Source: Pseudomonas nunensis (lineage in GTDB: Bacteria; Pseudomonadota; Gammaproteobacteria; Pseudomonadales; Pseudomonadaceae). From it: DNA of 64,000 nt. Under the pieces are notes generated by a model, which saw nothing but the letters and a program-made list of their open reading frames with translations, searched no databases and was not told the origin of the DNA. The translations under genes and the position numbers were made by a program. Every line of letters begins with the position of its first letter. Position 1 is the stretch's first letter. Positions 10,488 to 64,000 of this stretch are shown piece after piece. The stretch spans positions 6,140,501 to 6,204,500 of the forward strand of contig NZ_CP101125.1 of NCBI RefSeq assembly GCF_024296925.1, given 5' to 3'.

Positions 10488-11190
10488 GTTTGAAACACGA
10501 GAGGAGCAGCCTTGCTTCTCTCCAGTGCGCCACCCGAGGAAGGCAGGCGCATGACCAAGGGGTCGGGACGCTTTGACTGCTTCAGGGTCGGAGTGACCTA
10601 CGGGCACATGGAGTGCTTGCGCAAGGGCCGGGTCAGGTCAGTAAAGCTGCGACGCAAGTTCGCCGGCCCTCAGTGGCTCGACGGACTTGCGAAGAGCTTC
10701 CAACGTGCAAAACGTTGATCTAGAGCACTTCGCTTGTTCCCTTCTGCTGCATATTCCCCGCAAAACCGTTTCGCGGTGTTTCTTCACGACCGTATATCGA
10801 GAAACCTCCGACTTTCGTCGCGGGAGTTTTCGCTATCAAACGTGGGCTTTTTCCCAAGTTTTGCCATGAATTCAACTGTTTAAAAAACAACCAACCTGCT
10901 CTGAAATGGCCGGTTCACGGCACTTATGCCTGCCGAAATGTCGTATTCGAACCGGTTGGGACGCCAGTTTCATTTGAAAAAGCTCATGCCGATTCGGCAT
11001 AGGGTAGGCGTTTACGGCATTAGACGTCGCTTCCTTGCATCGGAATAGTTGCGCCTTTTTTCGCCTGCCGAAGAGCCGTAATTACGCGCTTGCGGGGCAC
11101 CTTATACGGGGGCAGATGCACAGACTTTTCCGCCACTGAGCGTTCCAGTTCGCGCATCTGCCCGAGTCAAACTGAAGTAAGGGTAATGAT
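10488..11190. other. Long intergenic region before gltP
   Basis: This is 700 bases with no convincing gene; the short open frames lack ribosome sites and protein-like composition. An imperfect hairpin at 10499-10522 lacks a T-run. A bulged hairpin followed by TTTT at 10802-10831 may terminate the ivy operon. A perfect dyad ATGCCG-ATT-CGGCAT (10986-11000) lies about 190 bases before gltP and may be an operator. The rest may be the gltP promoter and leader or an unrecognised small RNA. Confidence 0.5.
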
Positions 11191-27474: not shown

Positions 27475-27588
27475 AAGCTGTGCTTATCCTAGTCATTGCC
27501 TTGCGTGGGCTTTACCACAAAGAGCATGGCCTACATGCTCGGTCGCAGCACTCTCGCATAAATATTCACTATGGAATGCCGCGATCAC
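27475..27588. promoter_or_regulatory. Divergent promoter region lysR/betC
   Basis: A 114-base region between divergent start codons. LysR-type regulators normally bind such regions at a T-N11-A dyad to control both genes. The segment around 27527-27575 is A/T-richer (CATAAATATTCACTATGG), but no single operator stands out clearly. Confidence 0.45.
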
Positions 27589-49112: not shown

Positions 49113-50645
49113 TTATTCATGCAGCAGGGGGAAATGAAGGCTGAAACAGGTGCCTTTACCGACCTCACTTAAACATTCGATCCGGCCATCGTGGTGATCC
49201 ACCACAGCCTTGACCATCGACAATCCCAACCCAATACCATCGATACCTTGAGCCGAAGTAAACCGGCGATATTGGCTAAACAGCTCAGGCAATTCGTTGG
49301 CAGCGATGCCTTTGCCCTGATCGGTAAGCTCGCACGTCAGCCAACCCTCGCGACTGCTGACTTGCAGGCTGATACGCGTTCCGGCATCGCTGTACTTGAT
49401 AGCGTTTTCCAGCAAATTGAACAACGCCCGGGTCAGCAAGCCCTGATCGGCCATGATCAAACTTTCCTGGACATCGTCTTCGAGGTGGTGGACTAACTCG
49501 ATCTGCTTCAACTGCGCAATGCTCAAGGACTGGTCGAACACGTCCAGTACCAGCATCGCGAACAGGGTGGGCTGGAATTCATAGGCCTCAGACTCGGCCC
49601 TGGCCAATAATACAAAGCCGTCCGTGAGGTCCAAGGCCCGCCGCACCTGACGCTCAATCTGATCGAACAACTGCGTGTCGCCGCCCACCTGGTGCCGATG
49701 CACATCGAGCAAGGCCAAAATCGCCGAATGCGGCGCCCGCAGGTCGTGGGACAAAAAGCGTAGCAGCACACCACGTTGCTCCTCGGCATCACGTTCGACA
49801 CTAAGGTCGGTCAGACTCAGCAGCCAGCCGATCGGCGTTTCTCCGTCCACGGGCAACAATGCCGCGCGCTCCAGGCGCAGACTGCGTCCTTTGATATCCC
49901 TGAACTCCAGCAGGGCCAACGTCGATAAAAGCGGGCGCGCGCCATTCAGCAATTCCGGGTAGCCCAATCGCGCCAGTTGCTCAAGGATGTCATCGCCCAC
50001 CAGATCGGCGCCGAACAAGTCTCGGGCGTTACGATTGCCGAGCAATATCCGGCCTCGCGGATCACTGATCAACGTCGCTACCGGTAGATACTCCAGTCCA
50101 TCGGCGATAAAGCGCCGGGTATCGCGGGTCCGACTCATGGCTTGTTCCAGCGCCATGATTTGCCCCTGCAAATGATCGCCGGTGGGAAACTGCACCCGTC
50201 GGCGTTCCGGGAAGACTTTCGGTTCGTTGTCCAGTCGCGCCAGTTCCCAGCCGAAATAGCTCAGCACCACACTCAGGCGCCGCCAATTCCAGATCAGGTA
50301 GCCCAGCAGCATGCCCATCAGGCTCGCCGCCGGGGACCACCACCAACGCAGTTCTGCCAGACAGGCGCTGATCAGCAGCGCGCAGCTCATGCCACCCAGC
50401 GTCAGCCACAACGCCAGGCGCGGGCGCAGTAACAGCAAGCCGAGCACGCAAGCGACTAGACTGACTGACAACAACGCCTCCAGCGCTCCCGAACCCTTGA
50501 GCTCACTGGACTGGGCGCTGTACGAGAGCAGGGCAGTCAGGGGCAGCAGGATCAGACTTATCCACAACCACTCCCTGACTAACTGCCGGAATAAACGCTG
50601 GACCTGAGTCGGTTCACGGCTTTCACGACGGCGCTGAATTGTCAT
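49113..50645 (-). CDS. Membrane sensor histidine kinase
   Basis: A 510-residue kinase with four predicted membrane helices in the first 130 residues (LWISLILLPLTALLSYSAQ; VSLVACVLGLLLL; LWLTLGGMSCALLISACLA; SLMGMLLGYLIWNW), a PAS domain (about 185-285), HisKA with LRFLSHDLRAPHSAIL and HATPase with LLENAIKYSD, DQGKGI and GIGLGLSMVK. It has little periplasmic sequence, so it may sense a signal within the membrane. The ATG at 50645 was chosen; a TTG six bases upstream is possible. It is divergent from its probable partner, the response regulator at 50821, with 175 bases between. Confidence 0.9.
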   Translation of the reverse strand: MTIQRRRESREPTQVQRLFRQLVREWLWISLILLPLTALLSYSAQSSELKGSGALEALLSVSLVACVLGLLLLRPRLALWLTLGGMSCALLISACLAELRWWWSPAASLMGMLLGYLIWNWRRLSVVLSYFGWELARLDNEPKVFPERRRVQFPTGDHLQGQIMALEQAMSRTRDTRRFIADGLEYLPVATLISDPRGRILLGNRNARDLFGADLVGDDILEQLARLGYPELLNGARPLLSTLALLEFRDIKGRSLRLERAALLPVDGETPIGWLLSLTDLSVERDAEEQRGVLLRFLSHDLRAPHSAILALLDVHRHQVGGDTQLFDQIERQVRRALDLTDGFVLLARAESEAYEFQPTLFAMLVLDVFDQSLSIAQLKQIELVHHLEDDVQESLIMADQGLLTRALFNLLENAIKYSDAGTRISLQVSSREGWLTCELTDQGKGIAANELPELFSQYRRFTSAQGIDGIGLGLSMVKAVVDHHDGRIECLSEVGKGTCFSLHFPLLHE

Positions 50646-50820
50646 GGGCAAGTCTGATAGGGCAGGGGGAAGGCGTTAGATTCATGAGTCAGGAGTCTGA
50701 TTGGAAGATTGAACCCGAAGAATCATAGCGGACGATGACCGACGCAGGTTTGCTTACTTTCACTCCGCCAGTCGAGCCGGTATCGTCTACCGCCCACCCG
50801 CCCTCAAGGAATTGCCGCAC

Positions 50821-51540
50821 ATGCGTGTCGCGATACTGGACGATGAACCCGCCGAACTGCGCCGGGTCGAACAGACCCTGCACCAAATGGCCGAACCGGG
50901 CGAACAGCCCTGGCTATTGCACAGCTTCGAGCGCGCGGAAGATCTGTTGCGCCAGCTACGCCGGGAAACCTTCGACCTGCTCATCCTCGACTGGCAACTG
51001 CCGGACCTCAGCGGCCTCTCGCTGCTGCGCTGGACCCGCGAACACATGGATGCGCCGCCTGCCGCCATCATGCTCACCAGCCGCGACGCCGAGAGTGACA
51101 TCGTCCAGGCACTGAATGCCGGGGCCGACGACTACGTCAGCAAGCCGTTCCGTCCCAACGAATTGAAAGCCCGTGTCGCTGCTGTATTGCGCAGGCACGG
51201 CCAGCAACGCGCGACGGCTACCGAAGTACTGAGTTTCAATGACCTAGTGTTTGATGACGCTGAACTGACCGTCACCCGCGCGGGTATCCCCATCGCCATG
51301 ACCGAACGGGAATACAGTCTGGCGCGGTGTTTATTCACCAACCTGGGCCGGCCGTTATCTCGGGAATATCTGTATGGACGATTCTGGAGTCATGAAGAGA
51401 TGGTGTCTTCGCGACCTCTGGACACTCACATCTATCGCCTGCGCAATAAGCTCGGGCTGACGGCTGATCGGGGTTGGCAGCTGCTGACGATTTATGGGTA
51501 TGGGTATCGGTTGGAGAGTGTGGGGGCGGTCGGCGAATAA
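50821..51540 (+). CDS. OmpR-family response regulator
   Basis: A 239-residue regulator with a receiver domain (acidic DDE at the start, phospho-acceptor Asp57 in LLILDWQLPD, Lys in VSKPF) and a C-terminal OmpR-type winged helix (about 140-235, with TEREYSLARCLFTNLGRPLSREYLYGRFW and DTHIYRLRNKLGL). It probably pairs with the divergent kinase. Its target is unknown; it stands at the edge of the accessory region and may regulate it, but this is speculation. The ATG at 50821 follows AAGGAATTG. It ends in a hairpin that may be its terminator. Confidence 0.9.
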   Translation: MRVAILDDEPAELRRVEQTLHQMAEPGEQPWLLHSFERAEDLLRQLRRETFDLLILDWQLPDLSGLSLLRWTREHMDAPPAAIMLTSRDAESDIVQALNAGADDYVSKPFRPNELKARVAAVLRRHGQQRATATEVLSFNDLVFDDAELTVTRAGIPIAMTEREYSLARCLFTNLGRPLSREYLYGRFWSHEEMVSSRPLDTHIYRLRNKLGLTADRGWQLLTIYGYGYRLESVGAVGE

Positions 51541-51554
51541 AGATCAACAGATCG

Positions 51555-51599
51555 CAGCCTTCGGCAGCTACATTTGTTAGGCGGAGCTGCCGAAGGCTG
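51555..51599 (+). terminator. Long hairpin after response regulator, terminator-like
   Basis: CAGCCTTCGGCAGCT at the left is inverted perfectly at 51585-51599, with a 15-base loop, followed by AGATTTTTTGAT. It lies 14 bases after the stop. The stem is related to a repeat common in pseudomonads (GCAGCCTTCGGCAGC), so it is both repeat and probable terminator. Confidence 0.8.
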
Positions 51600-51666
51600 A
51601 GATTTTTTGATGTTCAGGGCGCTGTCTAGTCCTGAAATAGGTTTACATCTGTTTCACATAATAATT

Positions 51667-51682
51667 GGTTCCACGTGGAACA
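51667..51682. other. parS centromere-like site (ParB binding)
   Basis: GGTTCCACGTGGAACA, whose complement TGTTCCACGTGGAACC is an exact match to the perfect 16-base parS palindrome described for Pseudomonas. ParB binds such sites near oriC to organise chromosome segregation. I see no other full site in this window. Confidence 0.88.
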
Positions 51683-52041
51683 GGGCACGGCAACTCATCG
51701 CTTTGAAGCGTGGAAGAAGGCAGGTGGCCTCGATCGCGAGAAGCTTCCCCCTGAACTGAGTAATGACGAAATGACCAGCGCTGCCTCCCAGGGCCAACTA
51801 GTCATTGTTTCCCGAGAAGTGAGTTGCCATGCCCAGTCCAGAGGACTCACCAACCTTCTAGGTGCGCTACTGAGCTGTTGACGCCGACGCCGAATTTACC
51901 CACGTGTAGAGGCAAGACTGATCCATCTCTAAACCTGCACAAATCCAGCACAGACAATGATTCGCGAGAGGAGTCAGACTGGATCAGTGAAATCCCGGCA
52001 GCTGGGTCAATTCCTCATCCGCGCCAGCAGACCAGGTTCCC

Positions 52042-53127
52042 TCAAAGCGCAAATCGTATCCGGGATTCACGGCGTTGTGCCGGAGGTAACGCTTCTCCCC
52101 GTCTCACGGCGGCTAGTAGCTGATCGACTCCGATATGCACGGCATCGGCTTGCACGTTGGACGGCTTGAAATTCGCTGCATTATCGAGACCTTGCCGGTG
52201 CGCCTGAATGATTTTCACGTCCTGACGGATAACAATACGGGTGTACAGATGAATGAACGGACGCAACAGGCGTAGTACCCAGCGGGGTAGCCGGAAGCGG
52301 TAGGCGATGTAGGTGTAGACGCGCGACTGTCTTGAATCTATGGGTGTGATCTGGCTGATGATGAAGAACGCCGAACAGTCGCCCCAGCGGTAGTCGCAGC
52401 GCGTGACGTTGGGTGCGAAAAAACGATCCGTGTGCACCAATGGCTCGCCGTCGGGATTACTGAGCCAGTTCAAGAAACCGATCTTGTCGCCGTTCTCGTG
52501 ATAGGTCACTTCAACGCTCTGCGCTTTACACGCGAGCGTAGCCTCCATTGTTCGCCCCGTGCTGGATCTGAAGATGCCTTCGTGCACAAACACGGTGTGC
52601 GGTACGTCCATGAAGTTCTGCACGAGGCTGCCGACATCTGCCTCGAACGTGTTAATCATGAAATAGGACTGCCAGGGTTTTTCGCCGTAGACCGGTAGCT
52701 TGAACACAGGTTTTTCCTGCGGGTTGCCCGTTCCGGTGTAGACCCAGACAAGTCCGTCCTGTTCTTGCACCGCAAAGTGACGCTGGCGGTATCGATACGC
52801 GGGCGAAGTCGATGAACATGGCATATCGCCGACGCTGGGGATGTGCACCACTTGCCCCTGAGCGTCGTAGCGCCAGCCGTGGTAAGGGCACACCAGGCAA
52901 TCGTCGGCAATCTTACCCGCCGATAAGCGCGTTCCGCGGTGCACGCACTGGTCGAGCAACGCCGCTGCCCGGCCGTCGCGCTGGCGGAAGAGCACCAGGT
53001 TCAGGCCCAGAATCTTCGCCCGGTAAGGTTTGTTTTTGCGCAGTTCTTTCTGTGCGCACGCCACATACCATTGTTCGAGGGTGCCATCGTCCGGCGTCTC
53101 AAGAAGGTTGTTCAAAGGTGCCGACAT
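52042..53127 (-). CDS. Rieske-type aromatic/alkyl hydroxylating oxygenase
   Basis: A 361-residue oxygenase alpha-subunit-like protein. The Rieske [2Fe-2S] ligands are Cys61-x-His63 and Cys80-x2-His83 (spacing CVHR...CPYHGW) and the mononuclear iron site is Asp174-x2-His177-x4-His182 (DVPHTVFVH). The overall pattern matches single-component-type Rieske oxygenases that hydroxylate or desaturate lipid-like or alkyl substrates, needing an electron-transfer partner not found here. It is last in a leftward operon: its start overlaps the GH3 stop by 16 bases. It may carry out hydroxylation or N-oxygenation of the product made by GH3; the substrate is unknown. Confidence 0.85.
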   Translation of the reverse strand: MSAPLNNLLETPDDGTLEQWYVACAQKELRKNKPYRAKILGLNLVLFRQRDGRAAALLDQCVHRGTRLSAGKIADDCLVCPYHGWRYDAQGQVVHIPSVGDMPCSSTSPAYRYRQRHFAVQEQDGLVWVYTGTGNPQEKPVFKLPVYGEKPWQSYFMINTFEADVGSLVQNFMDVPHTVFVHEGIFRSSTGRTMEATLACKAQSVEVTYHENGDKIGFLNWLSNPDGEPLVHTDRFFAPNVTRCDYRWGDCSAFFIISQITPIDSRQSRVYTYIAYRFRLPRWVLRLLRPFIHLYTRIVIRQDVKIIQAHRQGLDNAANFKPSNVQADAVHIGVDQLLAAVRRGEALPPAQRRESRIRFAL

Positions 53128-54713
53128 GAGCTTTCCGTAAGAGCGAGAAGGGCTTCGGCTGTCTCCAGCCGATTGATAAGTGAACGCGGCTTGAAGTCGC
53201 CCGCACGGATGCCGCTCAACTCCGCCGCCTGCTGCAATACATGCGCGAGCTGATCAGCACCGCCGTCGAGCAGGCGCACCTGCACAAGTCCCAGTTGCCC
53301 TAGTCGGCGTGCCAGGCAGTAATGAAAGGCGTCGGACAGTGCCGTCTCGATCGTCAGCGCCAAGGCACTGGCATCAAGGTGGCGGGATGTCGCAACCAGC
53401 GCCGTGTAATGCGGTGGCGACGCGTAGGCATTGGGGATCAGGCAGGCGGCGCCTCTTGTGGCCAGGCAACGGTCGAACAGGTTCTGCACGGTTTGCTCAT
53501 CGAGTTTTTCTCCGACCAGATCACTGGTTCCCGTGGCACGTCCCACGAACTCGACCCGTGGCGTGGCCCCCGACATGCCGACGACGCGGACCCGATCGCC
53601 CAATGCATAGCGGTACAAGCCGCCACCGGTGGTCAGCAGGACCTGCGCCGTTTCTCCCAGGCGTAACGAATGAGAATGGCGCAGAGCGCCGTCTTCGCAG
53701 AGAAATTCCAGATAATGACTGCCGATCGCCAATGGGCATCCAGGCCCGTCGCCGAATGGAATGCTCACGACGCCTTCGGTGGCAAAAAGACTTTTCGGCA
53801 GCCACTGCGTTTGCGGAAAACGCACGGCCAGTTGCGTGAAATAGTGGCGGCTGGGGCCCTCCATCCAGCAACTGACGGCGGCCAGTCGTGGCCATAATTC
53901 GGTGCATACTCCTTGGGATCTCGCTCGGCGCAATGCTGACTGGCGCGACGCTGGAAGCGCGGCTTCCAGCCATGCAAACGTCTGCACATGTTCGGGCGTT
54001 TCGCCGTCGAACAGTGGCTGCAACAGGCTGGTCAGGAAGGTCGGGCTCCACACACTGATAAAGCTCAGATCGGCATCGGCCAGCAAGGCGAGGAGGGTCT
54101 GTCGGCGCCATTGCGACAACTCACCGCTGAACTCGGGAATCAACAAAGTCCCTGCCAGACCGGCGAGATGACTGCCGTGCAAATACGCCAGATCACTGGC
54201 CGACCCGATGCGAATGCCATTGGGTCCCGCCACTGGCATTTGCAAGGGCGGCGACATCGACCAGTAGCTTGATCCGTGGCTTATTCCGGGCACCTGACGA
54301 TGCATGTCGGCTAGCCACACGGTCAGCGCGCTATGCATTTCTGCGAGGAAGGCGCGCGTATAGGGAATCGCTTTCTGCAGCGCGCTGTTTCCGCTCGTAC
54401 GCTCGAAGAACAGCGGAGGGGAGGAGGTCAGAATCGCTTCGGATTCATTTTGCGCGCGCTCGATCCACGGCTGCAGTTGCGCGTAATCGTGGATCGGTAC
54501 GTTATCGCGAAACTGCGTCGAGTCATGCAGCCGAGCAAAGTGGTGGGCGCGGCCGAATGCGCAATCACTATTGGCTTCGAGCAGTCGCAGCAATGCCCGC
54601 TCTTGCGTCGATTGCGGTTGCTCGAGTTGCGTGAGCCATTGATCGAGCGTGGGCTTGGCGCTCTCCAGGAAGGTCTGCCACAGCGCGCGTTTGACATCCA
54701 TGTGGGCGCTCAT
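53112..54713 (-). CDS. GH3-family acyl-adenylating amide synthetase
   Basis: A 533-residue protein with the GH3 fold: the ATP motif ERTSGNSALQKAIPYT (residues 104-119), SLFATEGVVSIPFG, GGLYRYALGDRVRVVG and GRATGTSDLVGEKLDE. GH3 enzymes (plant auxin/jasmonate conjugation, firefly-luciferase superfamily) activate a carboxylic acid as acyl-AMP and join it to an amine, usually an amino acid. Bacterial members are uncommon and of mostly unknown use. The start overlaps the desaturase stop (TGATG), and the stop overlaps the Rieske start, so all three genes are coupled. The likely product is an acyl-amide. Confidence 0.87.
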   Translation of the reverse strand: MSAHMDVKRALWQTFLESAKPTLDQWLTQLEQPQSTQERALLRLLEANSDCAFGRAHHFARLHDSTQFRDNVPIHDYAQLQPWIERAQNESEAILTSSPPLFFERTSGNSALQKAIPYTRAFLAEMHSALTVWLADMHRQVPGISHGSSYWSMSPPLQMPVAGPNGIRIGSASDLAYLHGSHLAGLAGTLLIPEFSGELSQWRRQTLLALLADADLSFISVWSPTFLTSLLQPLFDGETPEHVQTFAWLEAALPASRQSALRRARSQGVCTELWPRLAAVSCWMEGPSRHYFTQLAVRFPQTQWLPKSLFATEGVVSIPFGDGPGCPLAIGSHYLEFLCEDGALRHSHSLRLGETAQVLLTTGGGLYRYALGDRVRVVGMSGATPRVEFVGRATGTSDLVGEKLDEQTVQNLFDRCLATRGAACLIPNAYASPPHYTALVATSRHLDASALALTIETALSDAFHYCLARRLGQLGLVQVRLLDGGADQLAHVLQQAAELSGIRAGDFKPRSLINRLETAEALLALTESSCRHL

Positions 54714-55642
54714 CAGAAGTAAGTCTTGTCCAGTTGCGTCAAGTCATCGGGTAACCGCTGGGGCGGCAGAAAAACCTGCAGCCAGCCATACCAGAGCGGC
54801 CGCGTTTCTTTCAGGTTAGAGGCTTCATGCATCTGCTGCCAATGCATGGCCGAGTGCCGATGATGGGTCAGGTTGTAGTTGAAGTTCAAAAACGCCCAGC
54901 GCACCAGATGCGGGGCCCGCATGTTATAGGCGCCCTCTACGACATCCAGCGGCGTGCGCATGTGGTACACCCACTGCAGCGACGACCAGGAAAATGCAAA
55001 AGCGAGATAGGCGATGAGCACAACGTGCCACGTCCATCCCAGCAAGAGTCCGATCGATAACCACGCGGCGACGCCGGCAATGACTTCCCGGCGGATGCGT
55101 TTGAAGTCGGCGCTGGAGAAATCCTTGAAAGCCGCGGCATAAGTATTGACCTCTGCGGTTTGCGACCACTTGTCCGTGATGCGGGCCGGCAGCACCGGCA
55201 ATAAAAGACTGCCGACAAACGCCGCCAGCCAGATACCGCCGAGCACCGCAAAGTAGTACTCGATACGCTTGCGCCACAGCGACTCATCCGCGACCGCGAA
55301 GTCGGCCAGTTCTGCGCGTGTGCGATTGCGCACATGATGCCCGAGATGGTTGATATGGATCAGCGTGGCCGAGGCGCCAAAAAGCGTAGAAGCCCACCAC
55401 ATGACGAAGTAGTTGAGTGATTTGCGACTGTGCGCCAAGCCATGGAAGGACTCGTGCATCATCGAGAAGACACCTTGCATGACCAGACAGAAAGGAACGA
55501 GCACCAGCCATTTGAGCCAACCCGCATCAGTATGGGAAAGCCAGGTCAGGGTCGCGCCCCAAAACAGCGTCTGCAGCGCCAGAACACACAGATTGCTCAC
55601 GTCGAAACGACGCGTTTGCGAAATGTCACTGGAACTGCGCAT
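54713..55642 (-). CDS. Fatty acid desaturase family protein
   Basis: A 309-residue membrane desaturase/hydroxylase with the three histidine boxes: HESFH (63-67), HLGHH (99-103) and a C-terminal HH/H cluster in YNLTHHRHSAMHW (about 256-268). Two hydrophobic pairs (about 17-62 and 150-230) form the membrane domain. It introduces a double bond or a hydroxyl group using a di-iron centre and O2. The amino terminus is polar. It is the first gene of the leftward operon with GH3 and Rieske, and divergent from the PF10118 gene. Its position relative to GH3 suggests it acts on an acyl chain that is later joined to an amine. Confidence 0.85.
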   Translation of the reverse strand: MRSSSDISQTRRFDVSNLCVLALQTLFWGATLTWLSHTDAGWLKWLVLVPFCLVMQGVFSMMHESFHGLAHSRKSLNYFVMWWASTLFGASATLIHINHLGHHVRNRTRAELADFAVADESLWRKRIEYYFAVLGGIWLAAFVGSLLLPVLPARITDKWSQTAEVNTYAAAFKDFSSADFKRIRREVIAGVAAWLSIGLLLGWTWHVVLIAYLAFAFSWSSLQWVYHMRTPLDVVEGAYNMRAPHLVRWAFLNFNYNLTHHRHSAMHWQQMHEASNLKETRPLWYGWLQVFLPPQRLPDDLTQLDKTYF

Positions 55643-55747
55643 ATGGGCTCCTTGAGAAAGGTCGAGTCAAAAAGTATACCGCCCTGACCGCTTCACTAAC
55701 GATCAATTGCTGGCGCGTCGGGGCAACGAGGAACCGCAGAAAACTTT
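55643..55747. promoter_or_regulatory. Divergent promoter region, desaturase / PF10118 gene
   Basis: A 105-base intergenic region between divergent starts, with A/T-rich parts near each gene (e.g. AAAAAGTATAC at about 55670). It should hold the promoters of both operons. No operator motif was recognised. Confidence 0.4.
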
Positions 55748-56626
55748 ATGTCGTATTTAAAACGTCTCTTAACCAGACGCTCGCCGGCGAAACCTGTTTG
55801 CGCAGATATCCCCCGGCGCAATGTGCGCTTTTCACTCGATGAGCAGACTCCTCGCTATTGGTATCGTGGCTGGCCGCACGTAACGCGCTTTTTCGATGGC
55901 CTGTCGATCATGTTTCCACTCGGCGAAAAACTCTTCATCGACAGTGTCGTGCACTTTCGAAAAGCGATCGAAAACGATTCGGCGCTGGCCGAAGCCGTTG
56001 ACGCGTTCGTTTATCAGGAAGCGTCGCATATTCGCGAACATCGTTCGTATAACCAGCAACTCGCGGCACAAGGCGCACCTATCGATGCCCTCGAACAACT
56101 GCTGTTGCGCCGTCAGGAGGTGGGCAACAAGTTTTCGCCGGCGATGCGTCTGGCCATGACGGCCAGCCTGGAACATTTCACCGCGATTCTCTCCGATCAA
56201 CTCCTGCGCAATCCTGCGGTCCTCAAAGGTGCCGATGGAAAGATGGCCATGCTATGGCGCTGGCATGCGATCGAAGAAACCGAACACAAGGCCGTCGCCT
56301 ACGATGTGCTGGGCGTGGTGGTTAGCAATCCGCTCCGGCGATACCTGATGCGATGCGGGGTCATGCTGATCATGACCGGCTACTTTGCAATCGATGTCAT
56401 GTACTTCATTTATCGACTTGCCGGCAATGACGGGCAACTCCGCAACGGGCGCGAGTGGCTGCGTTTGCTCGGCTGGTTATTCGTAAGTCCCGGTCCGCTG
56501 ACCCGTGTGTTTCCTAGATGGCTGGCCTGGTTCATTCCGGGGTTTCATCCCAACCGCCTCGACACCCATGAAGCGCTGGAAGCGGCGCGGCAAACGCTGG
56601 ACGAATATGCTGGGCGCACACCATGA
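55748..56626 (+). CDS. PF10118 putative metal-dependent hydrolase (di-iron-like)
   Basis: A 292-residue protein of the PF10118 'predicted metal-dependent hydrolase' family. Two clusters of acidic/His residues, YQEASHIREH (about 97-106) and AIEETEHKAVAYD (about 175-187), resemble the ExxH pairs of ferritin-like di-iron carboxylate enzymes. That makes an oxygenase as likely as a hydrolase. Weakly hydrophobic segments follow near 205-225. It is paired by ATGA overlap with the alpha/beta hydrolase. Confidence 0.78.
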   Translation: MSYLKRLLTRRSPAKPVCADIPRRNVRFSLDEQTPRYWYRGWPHVTRFFDGLSIMFPLGEKLFIDSVVHFRKAIENDSALAEAVDAFVYQEASHIREHRSYNQQLAAQGAPIDALEQLLLRRQEVGNKFSPAMRLAMTASLEHFTAILSDQLLRNPAVLKGADGKMAMLWRWHAIEETEHKAVAYDVLGVVVSNPLRRYLMRCGVMLIMTGYFAIDVMYFIYRLAGNDGQLRNGREWLRLLGWLFVSPGPLTRVFPRWLAWFIPGFHPNRLDTHEALEAARQTLDEYAGRTP

Positions 56627-57534
56627 TGCGACTTTCGGCGATAACACAAGCCTGGACGCCGAAGGGGTTTGACGACTGGCCACTGCATTTTCCGGCAACC
56701 GAATTCGCAGCGCCCGAGGCACGGCTGGACTGGACAGAACAATTTATCGCGTCCTGGCACAAGCCCATACCCAGCCTTCCCCCAGGCACGTTGGTGGTAC
56801 TGGTTGCCGGACTGTTTTCCGAATGGTTGCCCGGCTGTTTTCAGGATTGTGCGCGGACGTTGCGGCGCCTGGGCTATCCGGTTCTGCGCATGCCCGTGCG
56901 TTCATCTCGGGGCGTCATGGCGCAGGGGCGGCATATCAGCAAGGTGCTCACGGCCGAACTCACGCAGGGGCAACGATTTGTCGTGTTGGCGCACAGCAAG
57001 GGTGGCCTCGACGCGCTCGCGGCATTGGCACAGAACAAGGCATTAAGCGAGGCATGTGATGGCGTGGCGCTGGTGCAACCGCCGACAGGTCCGTCGACGG
57101 TCATGGATGACGTGTTGGCTGGCAGCGCAGGGCAGTCGAGCATCAACTACCCGTTTGATCGCGTTCGCCGCGTGCTGGCGAAAACCCCCTGGGTAGCCGA
57201 TGGCGCGCGGGATATCAGCAGTCTGCGCGACCCGCACATTACCCACCTGCTCAAACACCTGCCCGCCGCCGTGCGGTGCGTGCACGTCGTCAGTTGGAGC
57301 GCTGCCCCCAGTTCGCGCCTCGATACCCATCATGCCCGCCTCAATGCCCGGCGACCCGGTTGGGCTCATGACGGGCAGTTTTACCTCGAGCATCAACGCA
57401 TCGAGGGCATGCCGCAGATCTGTCTGCCCCGGCTCGATCATGGTCAACCGGTGCTGGGCGGCGGTGGCTTTGACGCCACACGTTTCTGGCTGACGCTATT
57501 GGCTGTCGTGCACGGACGCGCTCAGACGAGATAG
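56623..57534 (+). CDS. Alpha/beta hydrolase (lipase/esterase-like)
   Basis: A 303-residue protein with the alpha/beta-hydrolase elements LVVLVAGLFSEW (oxyanion strand), LAHSKGGLDALAAL (nucleophile Ser125 in AHSKG) and late candidate acid and histidine residues (e.g. RLDHGQPVLG). It probably releases an acyl chain or acts on an ester. No signal peptide is obvious. It overlaps the PF10118 gene (ATGA) and converges on the GNAT gene with a 13-base tail overlap. Confidence 0.8.
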   Translation: MMRLSAITQAWTPKGFDDWPLHFPATEFAAPEARLDWTEQFIASWHKPIPSLPPGTLVVLVAGLFSEWLPGCFQDCARTLRRLGYPVLRMPVRSSRGVMAQGRHISKVLTAELTQGQRFVVLAHSKGGLDALAALAQNKALSEACDGVALVQPPTGPSTVMDDVLAGSAGQSSINYPFDRVRRVLAKTPWVADGARDISSLRDPHITHLLKHLPAAVRCVHVVSWSAAPSSRLDTHHARLNARRPGWAHDGQFYLEHQRIEGMPQICLPRLDHGQPVLGGGGFDATRFWLTLLAVVHGRAQTR

Positions 57535-58637
57535 ATTTCGAAGCCTGGGATGCGCTCGGCGTCCTGCGCCGTCAACGCTTCGGCATTCCCCACACAGGGC
57601 GCCGTGTACAGGTCCATTGGAATGGACACGGCGCGATAGCGCGTCATGGCCATCCAGAGCGGGTCACGGTCATACAGACACATTTGCATCAACGCGTACT
57701 GACCGCGAACGCGCATCCACGCCGCATCCAGCAGTGCCGCAAAGATCTGCGGGTCGCGCTGTCGTACGTGCAAGTGGGTCAGGTAAACGTCGCGCAATGC
57801 CTCGCCGGGCGCGGCAATGGCAGGGCGCCCCAACAGCGGCGCACAGGTATTGAACGCGAGGCGAAGGGCCTGGTGCGCCAAGGGCAATGTTTCAAGCACC
57901 ACCCGTTTGATCCGCCCGGCATCCCAAGGCGCGACACAGCCCAGCAGATTGTCTTGGGCGTCCAGTGCCAGTAGAAATGACGAGAGGCCGAAGTCCGGCC
58001 AGGTGTCCAGACGCCGTGTAAACTGCGCTTCACTGAACACGCTGCCGAAGGGTTGACCTGCCGATTCGCGGTCGAGAAATGCGCGCAGCGCATCAGCGTG
58101 GCACGGCTGCGCTTGTACGATACGCACGTTGTCCGGCGCTCGCGGAGTGCTTCGCCACCCACGCTGGGCATACACGGCTACGTTGCTGTAGCCCCGCCAG
58201 TGCGCAAGCTTGAGCGGATTGGCGCGCCGTCCGCCCAGCAGCGACTGCGTCGCGAGACGGTTGGCGCGGATGACACAGCAATAGGCGTGCTGGACACCTG
58301 TTTCATCGGCCAGCGCTTCGAGCCTGACTTTGACCTCGGCCATCCACGACACCGACAGACGCCTATCAGGTACCAGCCGCAGATCCCCCAGATAGGCCAC
58401 GGGCTGAATGTCACCCTGAAGATAACCCTCGCGCACCACCAGGCTGGCAATGCCCTTCAGATCACCGACCTCGTTCTCGGCGATCCAGGTGCGATGGTCC
58501 AAGGCATGACAATGGTGCAGCGCAAAATAGTCAGGCCCGCGATCAAAACGCATTGGCAAGCCGCCCTGCATGGCCCGCTGCGCCTGAAAGTCGAGCAGTT
58601 GCCGATTGTCCGCAGCGCTGGCCTGGCGGATCAGCAT
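57522..58637 (-). CDS. GNAT-like acyltransferase (two-domain)
   Basis: A 371-residue protein whose beginning (MLIRQASAADNRQLLDF, then MRFDRGPDYFA) matches an N-acyl- or acetyltransferase (GNAT) start; a second GNAT-like half is apparent from about residue 170 (NVRIVQAQPCHADALRAFLD). The substrate is unknown. Its start overlaps the stop of the upstream gene by seven bases, so both acyltransferase-like genes form one leftward operon. It probably transfers an acyl group to an amine in the same pathway as GH3. Confidence 0.65.
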   Translation of the reverse strand: MLIRQASAADNRQLLDFQAQRAMQGGLPMRFDRGPDYFALHHCHALDHRTWIAENEVGDLKGIASLVVREGYLQGDIQPVAYLGDLRLVPDRRLSVSWMAEVKVRLEALADETGVQHAYCCVIRANRLATQSLLGGRRANPLKLAHWRGYSNVAVYAQRGWRSTPRAPDNVRIVQAQPCHADALRAFLDRESAGQPFGSVFSEAQFTRRLDTWPDFGLSSFLLALDAQDNLLGCVAPWDAGRIKRVVLETLPLAHQALRLAFNTCAPLLGRPAIAAPGEALRDVYLTHLHVRQRDPQIFAALLDAAWMRVRGQYALMQMCLYDRDPLWMAMTRYRAVSIPMDLYTAPCVGNAEALTAQDAERIPGFEIYLV

Positions 58638-59350
58638 GGTTGCGCGGCGGCAAACAGACGCAGCGCCATCGGCCGCAGGTTGTCGGGGTGCAGTTCACAC
58701 AGACAGACCAGCTCATTGCCCGACGCGTAATGAGGATTCTTCTGCAGAAAATAGGCGACGTTTGCCAAGCGCAGGTGAGGGGCAGGGACTTGCGCCAGTT
58801 CCGTCGTCAACCGACCTTGAGGCACTTTGAAAGACAGCACGCCCGTTGCCGGATCATAGGCCTCGCCGAAACGATCCACTGCAAGATGATCCGCCAACGC
58901 CTGCACCGTAGGATCCGTCACCACGCCGGCGCGGGGGACGTAATTCAACGCCATGGCGCCCAGATAACGGTAGGTGCGGTGACCCTTGCAGATCAGAAAC
59001 CAGTACAGAGGCACGTTCGGCTGCTCCTGCCAGATCTCACCGGCCAAGCGCATCCACGCGAATGCCAGTTGCTGGCTGCCCCAGTGTTCGCGGTCAATGA
59101 TGGTGTCGCCGGAAAAAATCACCCTGATCGGTTGGCCTGACCACGTGCGCTCATACTGTTTGAGGGTGGTGAAACCGACGATGGTTTCATCTGCACAACG
59201 CAATACGATGCAATGCGTCTTGTCTTGGAAATCCTGATCGAATCGCGGACGGGAGGTATCGCAGTAGGATGCGGAATAAATCTCGAACATCCGATCGATT
59301 TCATGTGGATGCAGATCGCAGCATTCAACGGACGTTGCGCTCAAACGCAT
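58631..59350 (-). CDS. Putative GNAT-like N-acyltransferase
   Basis: A 239-residue protein that I recognise only as GNAT-like: RFDQDFQDKTHCIVLRCADETIVGFTTLK resembles the substrate strand region, VIFSGDTIIDREHWG a core strand, and the conserved VPLYWFLICKGHRTYRYL resembles the acyl-CoA region. No membrane segment is seen. Of three candidate starts (59407, 59365, 59350) the last follows CGAGGATCTCC and was chosen. It is upstream of, and overlaps, the two-domain GNAT gene. Confidence 0.6.
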   Translation of the reverse strand: MRLSATSVECCDLHPHEIDRMFEIYSASYCDTSRPRFDQDFQDKTHCIVLRCADETIVGFTTLKQYERTWSGQPIRVIFSGDTIIDREHWGSQQLAFAWMRLAGEIWQEQPNVPLYWFLICKGHRTYRYLGAMALNYVPRAGVVTDPTVQALADHLAVDRFGEAYDPATGVLSFKVPQGRLTTELAQVPAPHLRLANVAYFLQKNPHYASGNELVCLCELHPDNLRPMALRLFAAAQPC

Positions 59351-59533
59351 GGAGATCCTCGGCATCGCAAGCAAGATGTTTGGAGTTTGGCGAGTTGAAA
59401 GGGCCAATGCAACGTAGACTTCCTTTCGTCCCTGCCATTTTCTGACGGTGCAAACCTTGAATAACCGAGCAGAAATCGCCGTTCATGGCGGTATGGAAAT
59501 TGAGTTTGTTCTGACCCATCAGGCGCCTTATTC
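59351..59533. promoter_or_regulatory. Divergent region, GNAT-like gene / PAP2-desaturase gene
   Basis: A 183-base region between divergent start codons that must drive the two outer units of the cluster. No strong consensus promoter could be assigned by eye. Short leftward open frames within it were rejected. Confidence 0.4.
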
Positions 59534-60994
59534 ATGTCATCCACGTTTGCCAGTCATCACCTTAATACCTCGATCGTGACGCGGCCCTTCAGTTGGCTGG
59601 TGATCTACACCGTCGTGACGGGCGCGCTGTACTTTCTCGTCACGCACTTCCCGATGGGCGCGGTACGGGTGATTCAACCGACGGGGTTTGATTCGCACAT
59701 TGCTCGCCTGCCTTACACGTTGCCGCTGTACCTGAGCTATGTACTGATCATGCCGGCACTGGTGCTGCTGGGGCGGCGCCGCGAATGGCTGTTGCCGGCC
59801 TTTTTTGCGGCGGCCGTGGCTTCCGGAACCTGCCTGCTGAGCCACTTGTTGTGGCCGACCATGATCGAGCGTACGGACAGCACGTCGCAGTGGCTCGCAT
59901 GGTTCTACCAGGTCGACTCACCGTTGGCCGCCTCGCCCAGCGGGCATGTGGCTTTGCCGGTGGCGATCAGCGTTGTCCTTGCTTGCCTGCGCGTCCGTGC
60001 GGCATGGCTCTTCAGTCTGTGGAGCGTGATGCTGTGGATTACCGTGTTGACGACGGGTCAGCACGTGCTGCTCGACGTGGTGTATGGCGCCGCGATCGGC
60101 GGCGCGGCGGGCCTGTTCACCGTCATGCTCAAGCGCCTGAAAGTGGATCTGCGCACCATGGCAGCGATCCTGCTGGAATGGCTGTGCATCATCGTGACGC
60201 TGCGCATCGCACTGTACGTGGGGGACTGGCGACTGTATGGCGTGGCCTTCGTGGTGATTGCCGCGCGCCAACATGCGCTGTTCATTCTGTACCACGACGC
60301 GACGCACTATCACCTGACCCGTCATCGTACGCTCAACGACTTTCTGATTAACCTGGCGATCGGTGTGCCGGGATTGGTTCCCGTGGAATTCTATCGGCCC
60401 CTGCACCTCCAACATCACCAACAGACCGGAACCGCGAACGACCCGGAGCGGCGTTTTCTGTATCACCGGCAGCCCTGGGATTTCCGCCCGCTGAGCGGGA
60501 AGTTGTTGCTGCGGCAATTGCTCGGGGATCTGTTCTTGATCAACACGCTGCGCAACCTGCGCGCCTACAAGGCGGCGGGCGGAGCATCACCGAAGATGAC
60601 CCGGCCGGCATTGGCTGCCGGTGTGATCTGGCTGGTCCTTTTATCTTTCATCGCTTGGCAAACGTCCGCCCAGACGCTCTTGCTGATGGTGTTTTTCTGG
60701 TTTGTGCCACTGGCCACGCTGGGCACCCTGCTGCAGAAAATCCGCAGCATTGCCGAGCACAGTGGCGGACCTGACGTCACCCCCGGTTGGCGTGAATGGA
60801 CATATGCCTGGAAAGTCGGGTGCGCAGGGCGGTTTTTCATTTGGCCTTATCACATCAATCTGCACCTGCATCATCACCGCAGTGCCAACCATCCCTGGCA
60901 TGTTCTCCCGCGTTTGGTGACGGCGGATGACGCGTTGCTGGACTCTCGGACGCTGCCCTCGCTGCTCTGGACGGGGATGAACAAGAACCGTTGA
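59534..60994 (+). CDS. Fusion of AUR1/PAP2-type phosphotransferase and fatty acid desaturase
   Basis: A 486-residue membrane protein with two enzyme domains. Residues about 20-200 are a PAP2_3/AUR1-type domain: SPSGHVALP (134-142) and TTGQHVLLDVVYGA (173-186) are the two histidine motifs of lipid phosphatase/phosphotransferases, without the KX6RP motif of classical PAP2. Residues about 205-486 are a desaturase with all three histidine boxes: HDATH (254-258), HLQHH (291-295) and HLHHH (444-448). About ten membrane helices in total. AUR1 relatives move a phospho-headgroup between lipids, so this protein may both exchange a lipid head group and oxidise the chain. I know no named homologue. Confidence 0.82.
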   Translation: MSSTFASHHLNTSIVTRPFSWLVIYTVVTGALYFLVTHFPMGAVRVIQPTGFDSHIARLPYTLPLYLSYVLIMPALVLLGRRREWLLPAFFAAAVASGTCLLSHLLWPTMIERTDSTSQWLAWFYQVDSPLAASPSGHVALPVAISVVLACLRVRAAWLFSLWSVMLWITVLTTGQHVLLDVVYGAAIGGAAGLFTVMLKRLKVDLRTMAAILLEWLCIIVTLRIALYVGDWRLYGVAFVVIAARQHALFILYHDATHYHLTRHRTLNDFLINLAIGVPGLVPVEFYRPLHLQHHQQTGTANDPERRFLYHRQPWDFRPLSGKLLLRQLLGDLFLINTLRNLRAYKAAGGASPKMTRPALAAGVIWLVLLSFIAWQTSAQTLLLMVFFWFVPLATLGTLLQKIRSIAEHSGGPDVTPGWREWTYAWKVGCAGRFFIWPYHINLHLHHHRSANHPWHVLPRLVTADDALLDSRTLPSLLWTGMNKNR

Positions 60995-61045
60995 TCCAGC
61001 CTGCTTCCCGGGCAGCACCGCTGGCGCAAAGAACGCCCCACGTTT

Positions 61046-61306
61046 TTAACTTGCAGCTTCACCCTTGGGATTGCTGGCAATCAGGCTGGCGCCGCATGCG
61101 GTTTTCATCCCGTGAAGCGCCACCGCGATGCCGCCGACATCCAGCAGGGCGCTGCCCTGCGTAATAGGGAAAACCCCTTTGCACAGCGGGCAAACCACCT
61201 TATGGCCAACACCGGACATGGGTTTGCCGTTCAGGTCAGTTTGGTTGAAAGCTTCAAGAACGGTACCACCGTGACTGGTGGAGTCGCCGAGCCGAATGAT
61301 GTCCAT
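61046..61306 (-). CDS. PAAR-domain protein (T6SS spike tip)
   Basis: An 86-residue PAAR protein: IIRLGDSTSHGGTV near the start, then a VCPLCKG cysteine pair and GIAVALHGMKTACGASLI, typical of the zinc-binding PAAR cone. It sharpens the VgrG spike of a type VI secretion system. The ATG at 61306 follows AAGAGGCC; a longer frame to 61432 overlaps tla3 and was rejected. It is 13 bases after tla3 and convergent with the PAP2-desaturase gene. Confidence 0.85.
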   Translation of the reverse strand: MDIIRLGDSTSHGGTVLEAFNQTDLNGKPMSGVGHKVVCPLCKGVFPITQGSALLDVGGIAVALHGMKTACGASLIASNPKGEAAS

Positions 61307-61319
61307 GTCAGCAGGCCTC

Positions 61320-62900
61320 TTAGAGATCGTCCATCCAGTTGGTTTTCGGTTTCTGGTCGGCGAGGAATTCTTCCAGCGTGTGATCCTGCTCGATGACCGG
61401 CATTTTTGGCCCCGAATGCGCTGAAGGCACAACTGGCGGTCCCTCGGTACTTGCGGTTTGAGGCATCAGGTTGACGCCGAAATGATCATTGCCTGAAGGC
61501 TTCTTGCCGGGCGTTGGCGAGGTCACGGCAATGATCGTCGCCTGCTCCGGGCGGCGCATCGGCATGACCACGCTGGTGTCCGCGTTCAGGTAACTGGCCA
61601 TCGTCGCCAGGGTGAGGCCGACAAACGGCGAGGCCGAGCCGATGTCACCCAAGCGCTGAGTCAAATCGTAGCTCTCGCGCGAATCAAGCAGGTCCAGCGG
61701 ACTGTGGGCGGCGGTGAGCGCCGGCAGCAGTTCAGCCAGAGGTGTGGTGTTCAAGCCACCATCAAAGAACACTCGAACCGGTTTCTGCGCCAGGCCGTCG
61801 GTGGCCTCTTTCCAGCCGGCGGCCAGTTTGACGGTCAGGGCGTCGCGCTTGAGTCGTTCGCCATTGTCTGGCCGCAACAGTGACACGGTGACTGGTCGAT
61901 GCAGTTTGGCCAACACTGGCAGCGCGTCCCATTGCTCGAACGCGCGCTGGGTCCAGGGTTGAGGAATGAACGTCGATGGCTGGAACTCCACGGCGGGTTT
62001 CCTCGCGCCCCAACCGGTGAACTCCGGGTCGATTTTGTTCTCGTTGACCTTGGCAAACTGCGCGTAGTAACGCAGCCATTCGACGCGCTCGGGGCGACCG
62101 ACAACCATGGCGACCATGGCGTCGGTGAGTTCGCCCGGCTTGCGCGGGCCAGGCCCACCAATCAGCGGCGCCTTTTTAGCCGACAAGGCAAACGACATGC
62201 TGAACCCTTCTACGTTGTAGACCAGTACAGCGGGGAGGTCAGGGTTCTGTTCGAACAGGTTGAACAGGTTTTCCACCAGGCCTTCGGGGGTGTCACTGCA
62301 GACCACGCCATCTTGCAGATTGCGCACGCGATGCCAGTGCAGGCCCGCTTCCGTGCGGTAACTGTTGACCATGCCCGAGAGCATTTCCCGGGTTCTTTCC
62401 GGGGAATAACGCAGGTTCGGTGTATCGGGACTCCAGCCACGAACGACCGTGATGGTCGGGATCGGCCACTTCTCCATGAAGTCGCGCAAGCCCAGTTCCA
62501 GAGCATCGGCCTTGCGCTTGTCATAGGCCAGGTCTTTGTCGTCGCCATCCACCGGATACTTTTTCGGATCCGTGGGCAGGATGCTGCCCACGTGGAGGGC
62601 TTCGGTCTGTTTTGCATTCTGCTCCTGCAAGGCTTTCCAGGCCTGGCCCTGACGGAATACGTCGAGGCTCAGGCCAATGGCGAGCACATCCAGAGTGTCC
62701 AGATGGGGCGAGGTGGCAGGGGCGCGGTAACGAGCATCAACAGGCATGGTGGCGGCCTCCTTGGCCGAGGTATAGGCAGTCACGGGTGAAGCCGCGCTGG
62801 CAAAGCAACGGCTGACCGTCGATGGATGTTCAGCCGCTTGAACCAGAGGGCTGGTCAGGAGCAGGCCGGTGAAAAACAGACAAGCAATATCGAGGCGCAT
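61320..62900 (-). CDS. tla3: Tla3-like type VI lipase adapter (DUF2875)
   Basis: A 526-residue DUF2875 protein, the family of P. aeruginosa Tla3, which hands the lipase Tle3 to a VgrG spike for export. The family core runs from about residue 60 to 450 (VVRGWSPDTPNLRYSPERT, LVYNVEGFSMSFALS, GGPGPRKPGELTDAM, FIPQPWTQRAFEQWD). The N-terminus (MRLDIACLFFTGLLLTSPLV) reads as a signal peptide or membrane anchor. Its start codon overlaps the tle3 stop (TGATG). It works with the adjoining lipase. Confidence 0.85.
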   Translation of the reverse strand: MRLDIACLFFTGLLLTSPLVQAAEHPSTVSRCFASAASPVTAYTSAKEAATMPVDARYRAPATSPHLDTLDVLAIGLSLDVFRQGQAWKALQEQNAKQTEALHVGSILPTDPKKYPVDGDDKDLAYDKRKADALELGLRDFMEKWPIPTITVVRGWSPDTPNLRYSPERTREMLSGMVNSYRTEAGLHWHRVRNLQDGVVCSDTPEGLVENLFNLFEQNPDLPAVLVYNVEGFSMSFALSAKKAPLIGGPGPRKPGELTDAMVAMVVGRPERVEWLRYYAQFAKVNENKIDPEFTGWGARKPAVEFQPSTFIPQPWTQRAFEQWDALPVLAKLHRPVTVSLLRPDNGERLKRDALTVKLAAGWKEATDGLAQKPVRVFFDGGLNTTPLAELLPALTAAHSPLDLLDSRESYDLTQRLGDIGSASPFVGLTLATMASYLNADTSVVMPMRRPEQATIIAVTSPTPGKKPSGNDHFGVNLMPQTASTEGPPVVPSAHSGPKMPVIEQDHTLEEFLADQKPKTNWMDDL

Positions 62901-64000
62901 CAGGGGTTGCCACCAAAACGGACAGGCTCGCCTTTTCTGAGCTCAGTGCGGGTCTGGGTCGCTACCAGGCTCGGCATGTTGTCGCTGATGGCGGGTAACG
63001 TGCCGGTCTTGCGATACGCCACTGTGGAGTCAATCAGCTCGCGGTTCTTACCGTCCTCTTGCTGATAGTGCTGATCCACGGAATCGTCCGGATCTTCATT
63101 CTCCGCCTGGAATTGCGCATTGGCGCCGCCATCGGTCTTTTTCCAGTCCAGGCGCCAATCTGCCACTCGACACAGATACGCATAGAACGACCCCTCATCA
63201 ACGCATTCGCCGGCACCGATCGCCACGTCATAGGCCAGCACTTGTCGGCTGTGTTCAGGGTTGTTGGGAATGGATGAGTGGAAGGACAGAGCCTCCGAGT
63301 ATTCCTCGCCTTGCAGACGCATACGCGCGTCGTACGGTGTTTCCCCGCGAGTGATGAGGACCTTGCCGTTACCTTGAGCCCGAGCGACAAACACATGGGC
63401 GCATTCCGAGGCTTCCTTGCCCTCGTTGCGGGCCTTTTCGACGCTTTGGATGTCTTGTCCATATTTGAAAGCCAGGGCTTCGTCCAGTGTCTCCTGTTTG
63501 GCGTAGCGTGGGTTTTTCGGCTCCCAGCCGCCATTGGCAACGCCGATCGAGGCATCGACAGGGTCCAGTTTGTCCTTCATCTGGTACACCCCGCTTTTGG
63601 AGGCTTCTCCCGGGGCGGTGATAACGCCATCGTTGGTAAAGTTCACGTCGCCCGGCACCGGCAATTGAGGCGCGGTCAAGACCACGGTGGCGCCCTTGTC
63701 CAGGCTGCCATTGGGTATCCGGTCCATGAAGCCCAGGCCGGTGTCTTCCCAGGGTTGCTCGCTGTCCTGGCGCAACAGGTAGACGTAGGGAGGAACGTGT
63801 TTGCCGACGGGTTCTTTCTCGCCGTTTCGCTTGCGCACGGTAAATACGCGTTGGTGGAAACGTTGTGGAAGAAGTTTGCGCGCAGGCTGACCATCTACCT
63901 CTTCGCCGATCCCCTGCCAGCCGATACCCTGGACGTTCTTGAGGCCAACCGTCTGATCCTGAGGGGTGAAGTAAAGAAAGGTGCAGCCGCGGTTGTCGCG
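62900..64000 (-). CDS. tle3: Tle3-type T6SS phospholipase effector (3' part only)
   Basis: The frame is open to the right edge of the window, so only the last 366 codons are seen; a GTG at 63838 is an internal codon, not a start. The segment just inside the edge (YFTPQDQTVGLKNVQGIGWQG) and the rest match the C-terminal DUF3274 region of Tle3 antibacterial phospholipases, which kill rivals from the periplasm. The alpha/beta-hydrolase catalytic core would lie beyond the edge, as would an immunity gene and probably a vgrG. It overlaps tla3 by one base. Confidence 0.83.
   Translation of the reverse strand, partial: RDNRGCTFLYFTPQDQTVGLKNVQGIGWQGIGEEVDGQPARKLLPQRFHQRVFTVRKRNGEKEPVGKHVPPYVYLLRQDSEQPWEDTGLGFMDRIPNGSLDKGATVVLTAPQLPVPGDVNFTNDGVITAPGEASKSGVYQMKDKLDPVDASIGVANGGWEPKNPRYAKQETLDEALAFKYGQDIQSVEKARNEGKEASECAHVFVARAQGNGKVLITRGETPYDARMRLQGEEYSEALSFHSSIPNNPEHSRQVLAYDVAIGAGECVDEGSFYAYLCRVADWRLDWKKTDGGANAQFQAENEDPDDSVDQHYQQEDGKNRELIDSTVAYRKTGTLPAISDNMPSLVATQTRTELRKGEPVRFGGNP

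Follow-up and report, generated by a model that had tools for sequence, protein, structure and literature searches.

The eight-gene block and its recurrence

The window analysed here is a stretch of 64,000 nucleotides from Pseudomonas nunensis (contig NZ_CP101125.1), corresponding to positions 6140501-6204500 of a 7.33 Mb genome that consists of a single contig. The subject is a block at 52042-60994 that holds eight genes in the open reading frame (ORF) list, three of which (GH3, GNAT1, and GNAT2) form its core; the initial annotation had counted nine, but its own list also names eight. The features of the block are as follows.

52042-53127, minus strand: Rieske non-haem iron oxygenase, tailoring (PF00355, E 1.6e-25; PF19112)
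53112-54713, minus strand: GH3-family acyl-amide ligase, core (PF03321, E 2.6e-37; PF23571)
54713-55642, minus strand: membrane fatty-acid-desaturase-family enzyme (PF00487, E 7.1e-23)
55643-55747, no strand: divergent intergenic region between the desaturase and PF10118 operons (gap between ORFs; -10-like TATACT facing the desaturase)
55748-56626, plus strand: PF10118 protein, probable ferritin-like di-iron enzyme (PF10118, E 9.5e-78)
56623-57534, plus strand: alpha/beta-hydrolase-like protein, hydrolase or O-acyltransferase (no Pfam match; weak match to esterase 5d8m)
57522-58637, minus strand: GNAT1, putative N-myristoyltransferase (NMT)-type double-GNAT N-acyltransferase, core (predicted fold)
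58631-59407, minus strand: GNAT2, putative single-domain GNAT-fold acyltransferase, core (predicted fold; TTG start as listed)
59408-59533, no strand: divergent intergenic region between GNAT2-GNAT1 and the PAP2-desaturase gene (gap between ORFs)
59534-60994, plus strand: PAP2-like/desaturase-family membrane fusion (PF00487, E 2.9e-23, C-terminal half; PF01569, 26.3 bits, N-terminal half)

The gene overlaps described in the initial annotation are present as given: 16 bases between the Rieske and GH3 genes, TGATG between GH3 and desaturase, and ATGA between the PF10118 and hydrolase genes. GNAT1 and GNAT2 overlap by a further 7 bases, and the convergent hydrolase and GNAT1 genes by 13. The reported proximity to the origin also stands, with a DnaA_N match at genome position 6217113, 16-25 kb from the block. 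In one Pseudomonas relative (G236), dnaA and the block are 1.07 Mb apart, and in Burkholderia sp. MS389 (L029) the block is on chromosome 2. GC content is 0.596 in the block and 0.600 elsewhere in the window, so the idea of a compositional island was rejected, as was that of a known defence system, PADLOC having found no match among the eight proteins. None of the eight has a nonribosomal peptide synthetase or polyketide synthase match in Pfam, in agreement with the earlier reading, and none has a Pfam methyltransferase match.

Both divergent gaps that had been proposed as shared promoter regions exist, but a sigma-70 consensus scan found no promoter in either; over 51500-61320 it returned zero promoters, while shuffled sequence averaged 2.7. 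In 11 of 12 Pseudomonas sequences including the window, many of which are close relatives, the hexamer TATACT precedes the desaturase start by 23-31 bases. The gap at 59408-59533 shows partial conservation only among relatives.

A scan of species genomes with a GNAT2 alignment yielded 282 relatives, from which the best 80 loci were kept, and gene presence in these was scored by tblastn at 1e-6. GH3 accompanies GNAT2 in 65 of the 80 loci, GNAT1 in 51, the Rieske gene in 48 and the desaturase in 39 (two counts that may take in second copies of other subtypes), the PAP2-desaturase fusion in 25, the hydrolase in 24, and the PF10118 gene in 20. All eight genes are found in 20 loci (nine Pseudomonas, nine Burkholderia, and two Cupriavidus), although in one of them (L023) PF10118 has its best match away from the block. 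Since the Burkholderia and Cupriavidus blocks preserve gene order and strands, with protein identities of 52-75%, the arrangement is not due to chance. Robbsia andropogonis (L027) matches seven of the eight genes, without PF10118; two gammaproteobacterial bins match seven (L032) and six (L031), the PAP2-desaturase gene over about half its length only. Several loci are short contigs in which gene absences carry little weight, but of the 49 with both flanks of about 10 kb, 42 have GH3 and 36 have GNAT1. By simple arithmetic, the chance of one GH3 gene falling within 10 kb of a given gene in a 7.3-Mb genome is about 0.3%. Three further observations concern these loci. Burkholderia arboris (L006, 14840-15589) and the two gammaproteobacterial bins have an extra desaturase-family gene after the Rieske gene; the Rieske gene of L108 (15749-16827) is in two pieces in different frames, reflecting a frameshift or an assembly error; and a kinase/regulator pair near a Burkholderia block weakly matches the pair at 49113-51540 of the window.

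Among 298 genomes of the genus, GNAT2 was found in 11 and GNAT1 in the same 11; GH3 was found in those, in three genomes with a distant GH3, and as short pieces in two others, while the hydrolase was found in eight, with short weak matches in two more. GNAT2, GNAT1, and GH3 are adjacent by coordinates in all 11 carriers. The whole block, present in eight of the 298, is thus rare yet kept together: it was read directly in five genomes (the window, L009, L106, L107, and L108), and the other three (G236, G250, and G060) correspond to loci L012, L013, and L015, each with all eight genes. The genes are therefore not scattered among Pseudomonas and Burkholderia relatives, and the earlier proposal of one pathway is supported: the eight genes behave as one unit, probably a biosynthetic one.

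The wider GNAT2-GH3-GNAT1 core

The co-occurrence expected in Pseudomonas and Burkholderia is real, but a core of GNAT2, GH3, and GNAT1 alone reaches far beyond these two genera, into other proteobacteria, cyanobacteria, Desulfovibrio, Synergistales, and a Planctomycetota bin. Of 57 loci that fall outside the block clade, 42 have GH3 close to GNAT2 (33 of them within 1.2 kb) and 28 have GNAT1, in every case together with GH3. Clustering of the ORFs, with a Pfam scan of one representative per cluster, gave four arrangements.

Arrangement A: Rieske, GNAT2, GH3, GNAT1, RnfD/NqrB-FG-GAP protein, desaturases, SnoaL, PAP2-like
Arrangement B: GNAT2, GH3, B12-type radical-SAM genes, GNAT1, SnoaL, desaturase, PAP2-like
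Arrangement C: AurF-like, FA_hydroxylase, SnoaL, amidohydrolase with Mpo1-like part, PAP2-like, GNAT2, second Rieske, SDR, ferritin-like, GH3, hexapeptide protein, Rieske
Arrangement D: GNAT2-GH3-GNAT1 with HlyD-family and MFS genes; in Acinetobacter, an outer-membrane efflux gene between GH3 and GNAT1

Arrangement B occurs, for example, on Citrobacter portucalensis plasmid NZ_CP134684, where the annotated products are GH3, radical SAM, N-acetyltransferase, PAP2, and desaturase. The HlyD-family/MFS pair of arrangement D, which we take to be EmrAB-like, also accompanies the core in three Pseudomonas genomes (G062, G308, and G133). In three alphaproteobacterial loci without GH3 (L041, L043, and L070), GNAT2 adjoins a member of a gene cluster whose representative matches PF00501 (AMP-binding).

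Pairwise distances of the three core proteins correlate across the 25 loci in which the ORF caller found all three, as expected of jointly inherited genes. A scan of 349 genomes of the phylum found GNAT1 in five: the host genome, G133, two corresponding to L052 and L053, and the new G506. In the four other than the host, core or tailoring genes adjoin GNAT1. G133 and G506 have GH3 there, G396 has a radical-SAM and a SnoaL gene along with a desaturase match, and G420 has a desaturase match.

Some GNAT2 loci have other neighbours. A GlnE-family gene is near three of them (L041, L043, and L045) and GltB/GltD-like glutamate-synthase genes are near another three (L064, L066, and L077); these are either chance housekeeping genes or a hint of glutamate or glutamine as a substrate. 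Three cyanobacterial GNAT2 homologues (L073, L078, and L088) share a neighbourhood with neither GH3 nor GNAT1 in the examined stretch, and GNAT2 may have another role there.

Core and tailoring proteins

The GH3 protein scores 129.1 bits against PF03321 (cut-off 23.6) and has three nucleotide-binding motifs (T106SGNSALQK as motif 1, ATEG, and GGLYRYALGD), which together identify it as a GH3-family acyl-amide ligase. Compared with the motifs quoted in PMC12493201, the first two are divergent, as they also are in OlsH. Membership of the OlsH family itself (NF052613) was rejected, the score being 39.6 bits against an NCBIfam equivalog cut-off of 620, over residues 7-125 only. Three other Pseudomonas genomes (G088, G141, and G195) encode a distant GH3 of about 27% identity in frames of 569-578 amino acids, without GNAT1 or GNAT2, and so have another bacterial GH3 type.

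GNAT1, GNAT2, and the hydrolase match no Pfam model, and a PHROGs search restricted to these three gave one weak match, to a family with no assigned function. The assignment of the first two as GNAT proteins comes from predicted folds and from weak GNAT matches in eight of 32 GNAT1 relatives. The predicted structure of GNAT1 resembles the double GNAT of NMT, with the chain running 24 residues past its last strand and its last residue aligned to the catalytic last residue of NMT, which puts the C-terminus at the predicted active site of the model. The ending is fixed: E-x4-stop terminates 74 of 77 outside homologues. GNAT2 is listed with a TTG start, but translation may really begin at an ATG 14 or 19 codons downstream. 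An assignment of GNAT2 as FeeM-type was rejected, since PF13444, which we take to be the FeeM-type N-acyl amino acid synthase family, is absent from the list of seven families obtained at E 0.05 with 57 GNAT2 members.

The Rieske oxygenase, whose closest solved relatives are SxtDIOX, SxtT, and DdmC, has both the CxH/CxxH centre (C61/H63/C80/H83) and the D/H/H mononuclear iron site (D174/H177/H182) of its family, at least 95% conserved in 31 sequences. Conservation is also at least 95% for the desaturase histidine boxes (H63/H67, H99/H102/H103, and H260/H261; 19 sequences), for E60, E91xxH94, E142, and E177xxH180 of the PF10118 protein (10 close sequences), for S125 in HSKG, H273, and several aspartates of the hydrolase (17 sequences), and for the PAP2-type H138 and H177 and the desaturase histidine boxes of the fusion (19 sequences). 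An AurF-family protein of a related cluster (L056) weakly matches PF10118 as well. The hydrolase has a weak match to esterase 5d8m (E 0.0041) and no NCBIfam match at E 0.001. The PAP2 half of the fusion scores 26.3 bits against PF01569, just under the cut-off of 27.2, while its desaturase half is nearest to GntB in NCBIfam (65.8 bits, cut-off 380).

Proposed function and comparison with known systems

GH3 together with acyltransferases points to an acyl amide, as the initial annotation had suggested. Taking the gene content, unit conservation, core co-occurrence, GH3 motifs, and fixed GNAT1 C-terminus established by computation with the predicted GNAT folds, the reading that we consider probable is that a lipid-like acyl amide is made by an NMT-type N-acyltransferase together with a GH3 ligase and is modified by oxygen-dependent enzymes, with the core as a widespread module. 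The C-terminal catalysis, substrates, step order, and product class that we infer would be as follows. The N-terminal GNAT domain of GNAT1 would hold a fatty acyl thioester and pass the acyl group to an amine, which the C-terminal carboxylate would deprotonate as a base, as in NMT. GH3 would use ATP to turn a carboxylate into an acyl-adenylate and then couple it to an amine, and GNAT2 would add or exchange a second acyl group; jointly, GH3 and the NMT-type enzyme could produce an amide that combines two acyl or amine parts. Where the whole Pseudomonas/Burkholderia block is present, the desaturase, the desaturase half of the fusion, the Rieske oxygenase, and the PF10118 protein would modify the product at the membrane. 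The hydrolase-like protein would modify it further, as a hydrolase or an O-acyltransferase, and a PAP2-type phosphatase or transferase might also contribute.

A lipid-like product is favoured because lipid- or oxygen-type enzymes make up many of the neighbours in the variant clusters (desaturase, FA_hydroxylase, Mpo1-like, PAP2-like, Rieske, and AurF-like). The membrane location proposed earlier is no general rule: some related cores carry exporter genes instead, a hint that export of the basic product is possible. Support for the step order and for head-group transfer by the PAP2 half, both proposed in the initial annotation, did not emerge. A more far-reaching idea is advanced tentatively, as possible but less probable than the first: GNAT2-GH3-GNAT1 would represent an ancient acyl-amide class whose acyltransferase is a true bacterial counterpart of NMT, with a C-terminal carboxylate base and a metabolite substrate, and bacteria would have grafted exporters, radical-SAM, Rieske, di-iron, and PAP2 proteins onto this core to give a family of lipids or signals.

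Several observations weigh against an NMT-type acyl-amide pathway. The likeness of GNAT1 to NMT is structural, at 8-10% identity and on a predicted model; sequence searches gave only an insignificant match (NMT2, E 0.39), and in Pfam, where the window protein has no match, one of 32 members touches the NMT family PF02799 (E 0.0037). The tandem GNAT MAB_4324 (Z 22.5) is within 1 Z unit of NMT, although its alignment ends at residue 348. A fixed C-terminus is also seen in the Rieske family and is thus not peculiar to GNAT1. Since acetyl-CoA is the donor for many double GNATs, a long acyl group is not required. Pfam finds neither an acyl carrier protein nor a Rieske reductase in the block, and GNAT2 has no GH3 within about 10 kb in seven of the 49 loci with complete flanks.

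Among the alternatives, a small diffusible non-lipid alkaloid or amide, serving as a signal or antibiotic, is unlikely but the most probable. The GNATs would work with acetyl or other short acyl groups, and hydroxylation of a polar scaffold would fall to the desaturase-family and Rieske enzymes, as it does to GntB and the saxitoxin Rieske enzymes. The fusion's desaturase half is indeed nearest to GntB, an arginine hydroxylase, the Rieske protein is nearest to SxtDIOX/SxtT, and exporter genes (HlyD-family and MFS) occur at core loci of Acinetobacter, which also has the outer-membrane efflux gene, and of the three Pseudomonas genomes; however, both enzyme matches are distant (65.8 of 380 bits for GntB, and E 8.9e-27 within a broad family for SxtDIOX), and the PAP2-like, Mpo1-like, FA_hydroxylase, and FA_desaturase genes that cluster with the core in relatives favour a lipid. 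Somewhat less probable again is a pathway to an ornithine-lipid-like or N-acyl amino acid lipid, in which GH3 makes the N-acyl amino acid from a free fatty acid as OlsH does, the hydrolase attaches another fatty acid in the manner of OlsI, and the remaining enzymes are decorations. The window does pair a GH3 with an alpha/beta-hydrolase-like gene, OlsH being a GH3 and OlsI an O-acyltransferase of alpha/beta-hydrolase fold (PMC12493201), and the OlsH model is the sole NCBIfam match of the GH3 protein at E 0.001, but that match is low and partial, the hydrolase (24 of 80 loci) is a less steady partner than GNAT1 (51) or GH3 (65), and two GNATs would be superfluous. The idea that membrane-lipid desaturation, a catabolic Rieske system, and acetyltransferases lie side by side near the origin as two or three functions independent of one another could draw on the several transcription units in both directions and on the empty promoter scan; it is largely refuted, and very improbable, given that all eight genes stay together in 20 of 80 loci of three genera, including one away from dnaA and one on Burkholderia chromosome 2, and that GNAT1, GNAT2, GH3, and the hydrolase coincide in the block carriers of the 298 genomes.

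The initial annotation called the cluster undescribed, and no description was found in open-licence PubMed Central papers, a search that leaves aside most subscription papers and all bioRxiv preprints. Because GNAT1 and GNAT2 match no Pfam model, these two core proteins are mostly annotated as hypothetical and such clusters are overlooked; searches with the core give access to a large number of them. The core also supplies a functional context for bacterial NMT-type double GNATs, and would make C-terminal carboxylate catalysis in bacteria testable.

Other features of the window lie outside the block. Adjoining it on the minus strand (61046-63838) are a PAAR protein, a Tla3 lipase adapter, and a Tle3 C-terminal domain, which constitute a lipase effector set of type VI secretion. 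At 49113-51540 is the histidine kinase/regulator pair, which also adjoins the block in one relative (L107) and was not counted as a member. An ivy-DE RNA is at 10552-10643 on the plus strand (RF02999, 88.6 bits); among ORFs of at least 60 amino acids overlapping 10500-11300, the next large one on that strand, 11191-12522, is transporter-like by eye. A choline sulfatase (PF00884 with PF12411) is at 27571-29103, plus strand.

The cluster is best placed with GH3-based acyl-amide biosynthesis, and its most surprising part is the NMT-type GNAT1. The nearest known chemistry is that of GH3/OlsH ornithine lipids. According to PMC12493201, GH3 enzymes adenylate an acid and then join it to an amine, OlsH is a bacterial GH3 that makes N-acyl ornithine for ornithine lipids, and OlsI is an O-acyltransferase of alpha/beta-hydrolase fold acting after it. 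Like the OlsH/OlsI pathway of Singulisphaera acidiphila, the window pairs a GH3 ligase having the three motifs with an alpha/beta-hydrolase-like gene, in putative membrane amino-lipid chemistry; unlike it, the block adds two GNATs and four oxygen-type enzymes, without a methyltransferase match. Plant GH3 acyl-acid-amido synthetases share the family and motifs, but their structures are matched at E about 1e-14 only, and the window gene sits in a bacterial cluster. AurF N-oxygenase and other ferritin-like di-iron enzymes resemble the PF10118 protein in its conserved Glu/His set, and related clusters carry AurF-family genes; the relation of PF10118 itself to AurF is seen in one weak double match only.

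For GNAT1, one close likeness is to eukaryotic NMT: the GNAT1 model is also a double GNAT, with a C-terminal extension that stops where NMT has its catalytic C-terminal residue; the bacterial protein differs in its low identity, in lacking a significant sequence match, and in its place within a metabolite cluster. HisAT/NAT16, MshD, Eis, and MAB_4324 share the predicted double-GNAT architecture, and MAB_4324 ties with NMT in Z. The HisAT chain stops right after its last strand, according to PMC12219266, while that of GNAT1 continues; in the same 2025 study, bacterial NMT-type double GNATs appear only as predicted structures. Catalysis by a C-terminal carboxylate is called unique to NMT among GNATs in PMC4964394.

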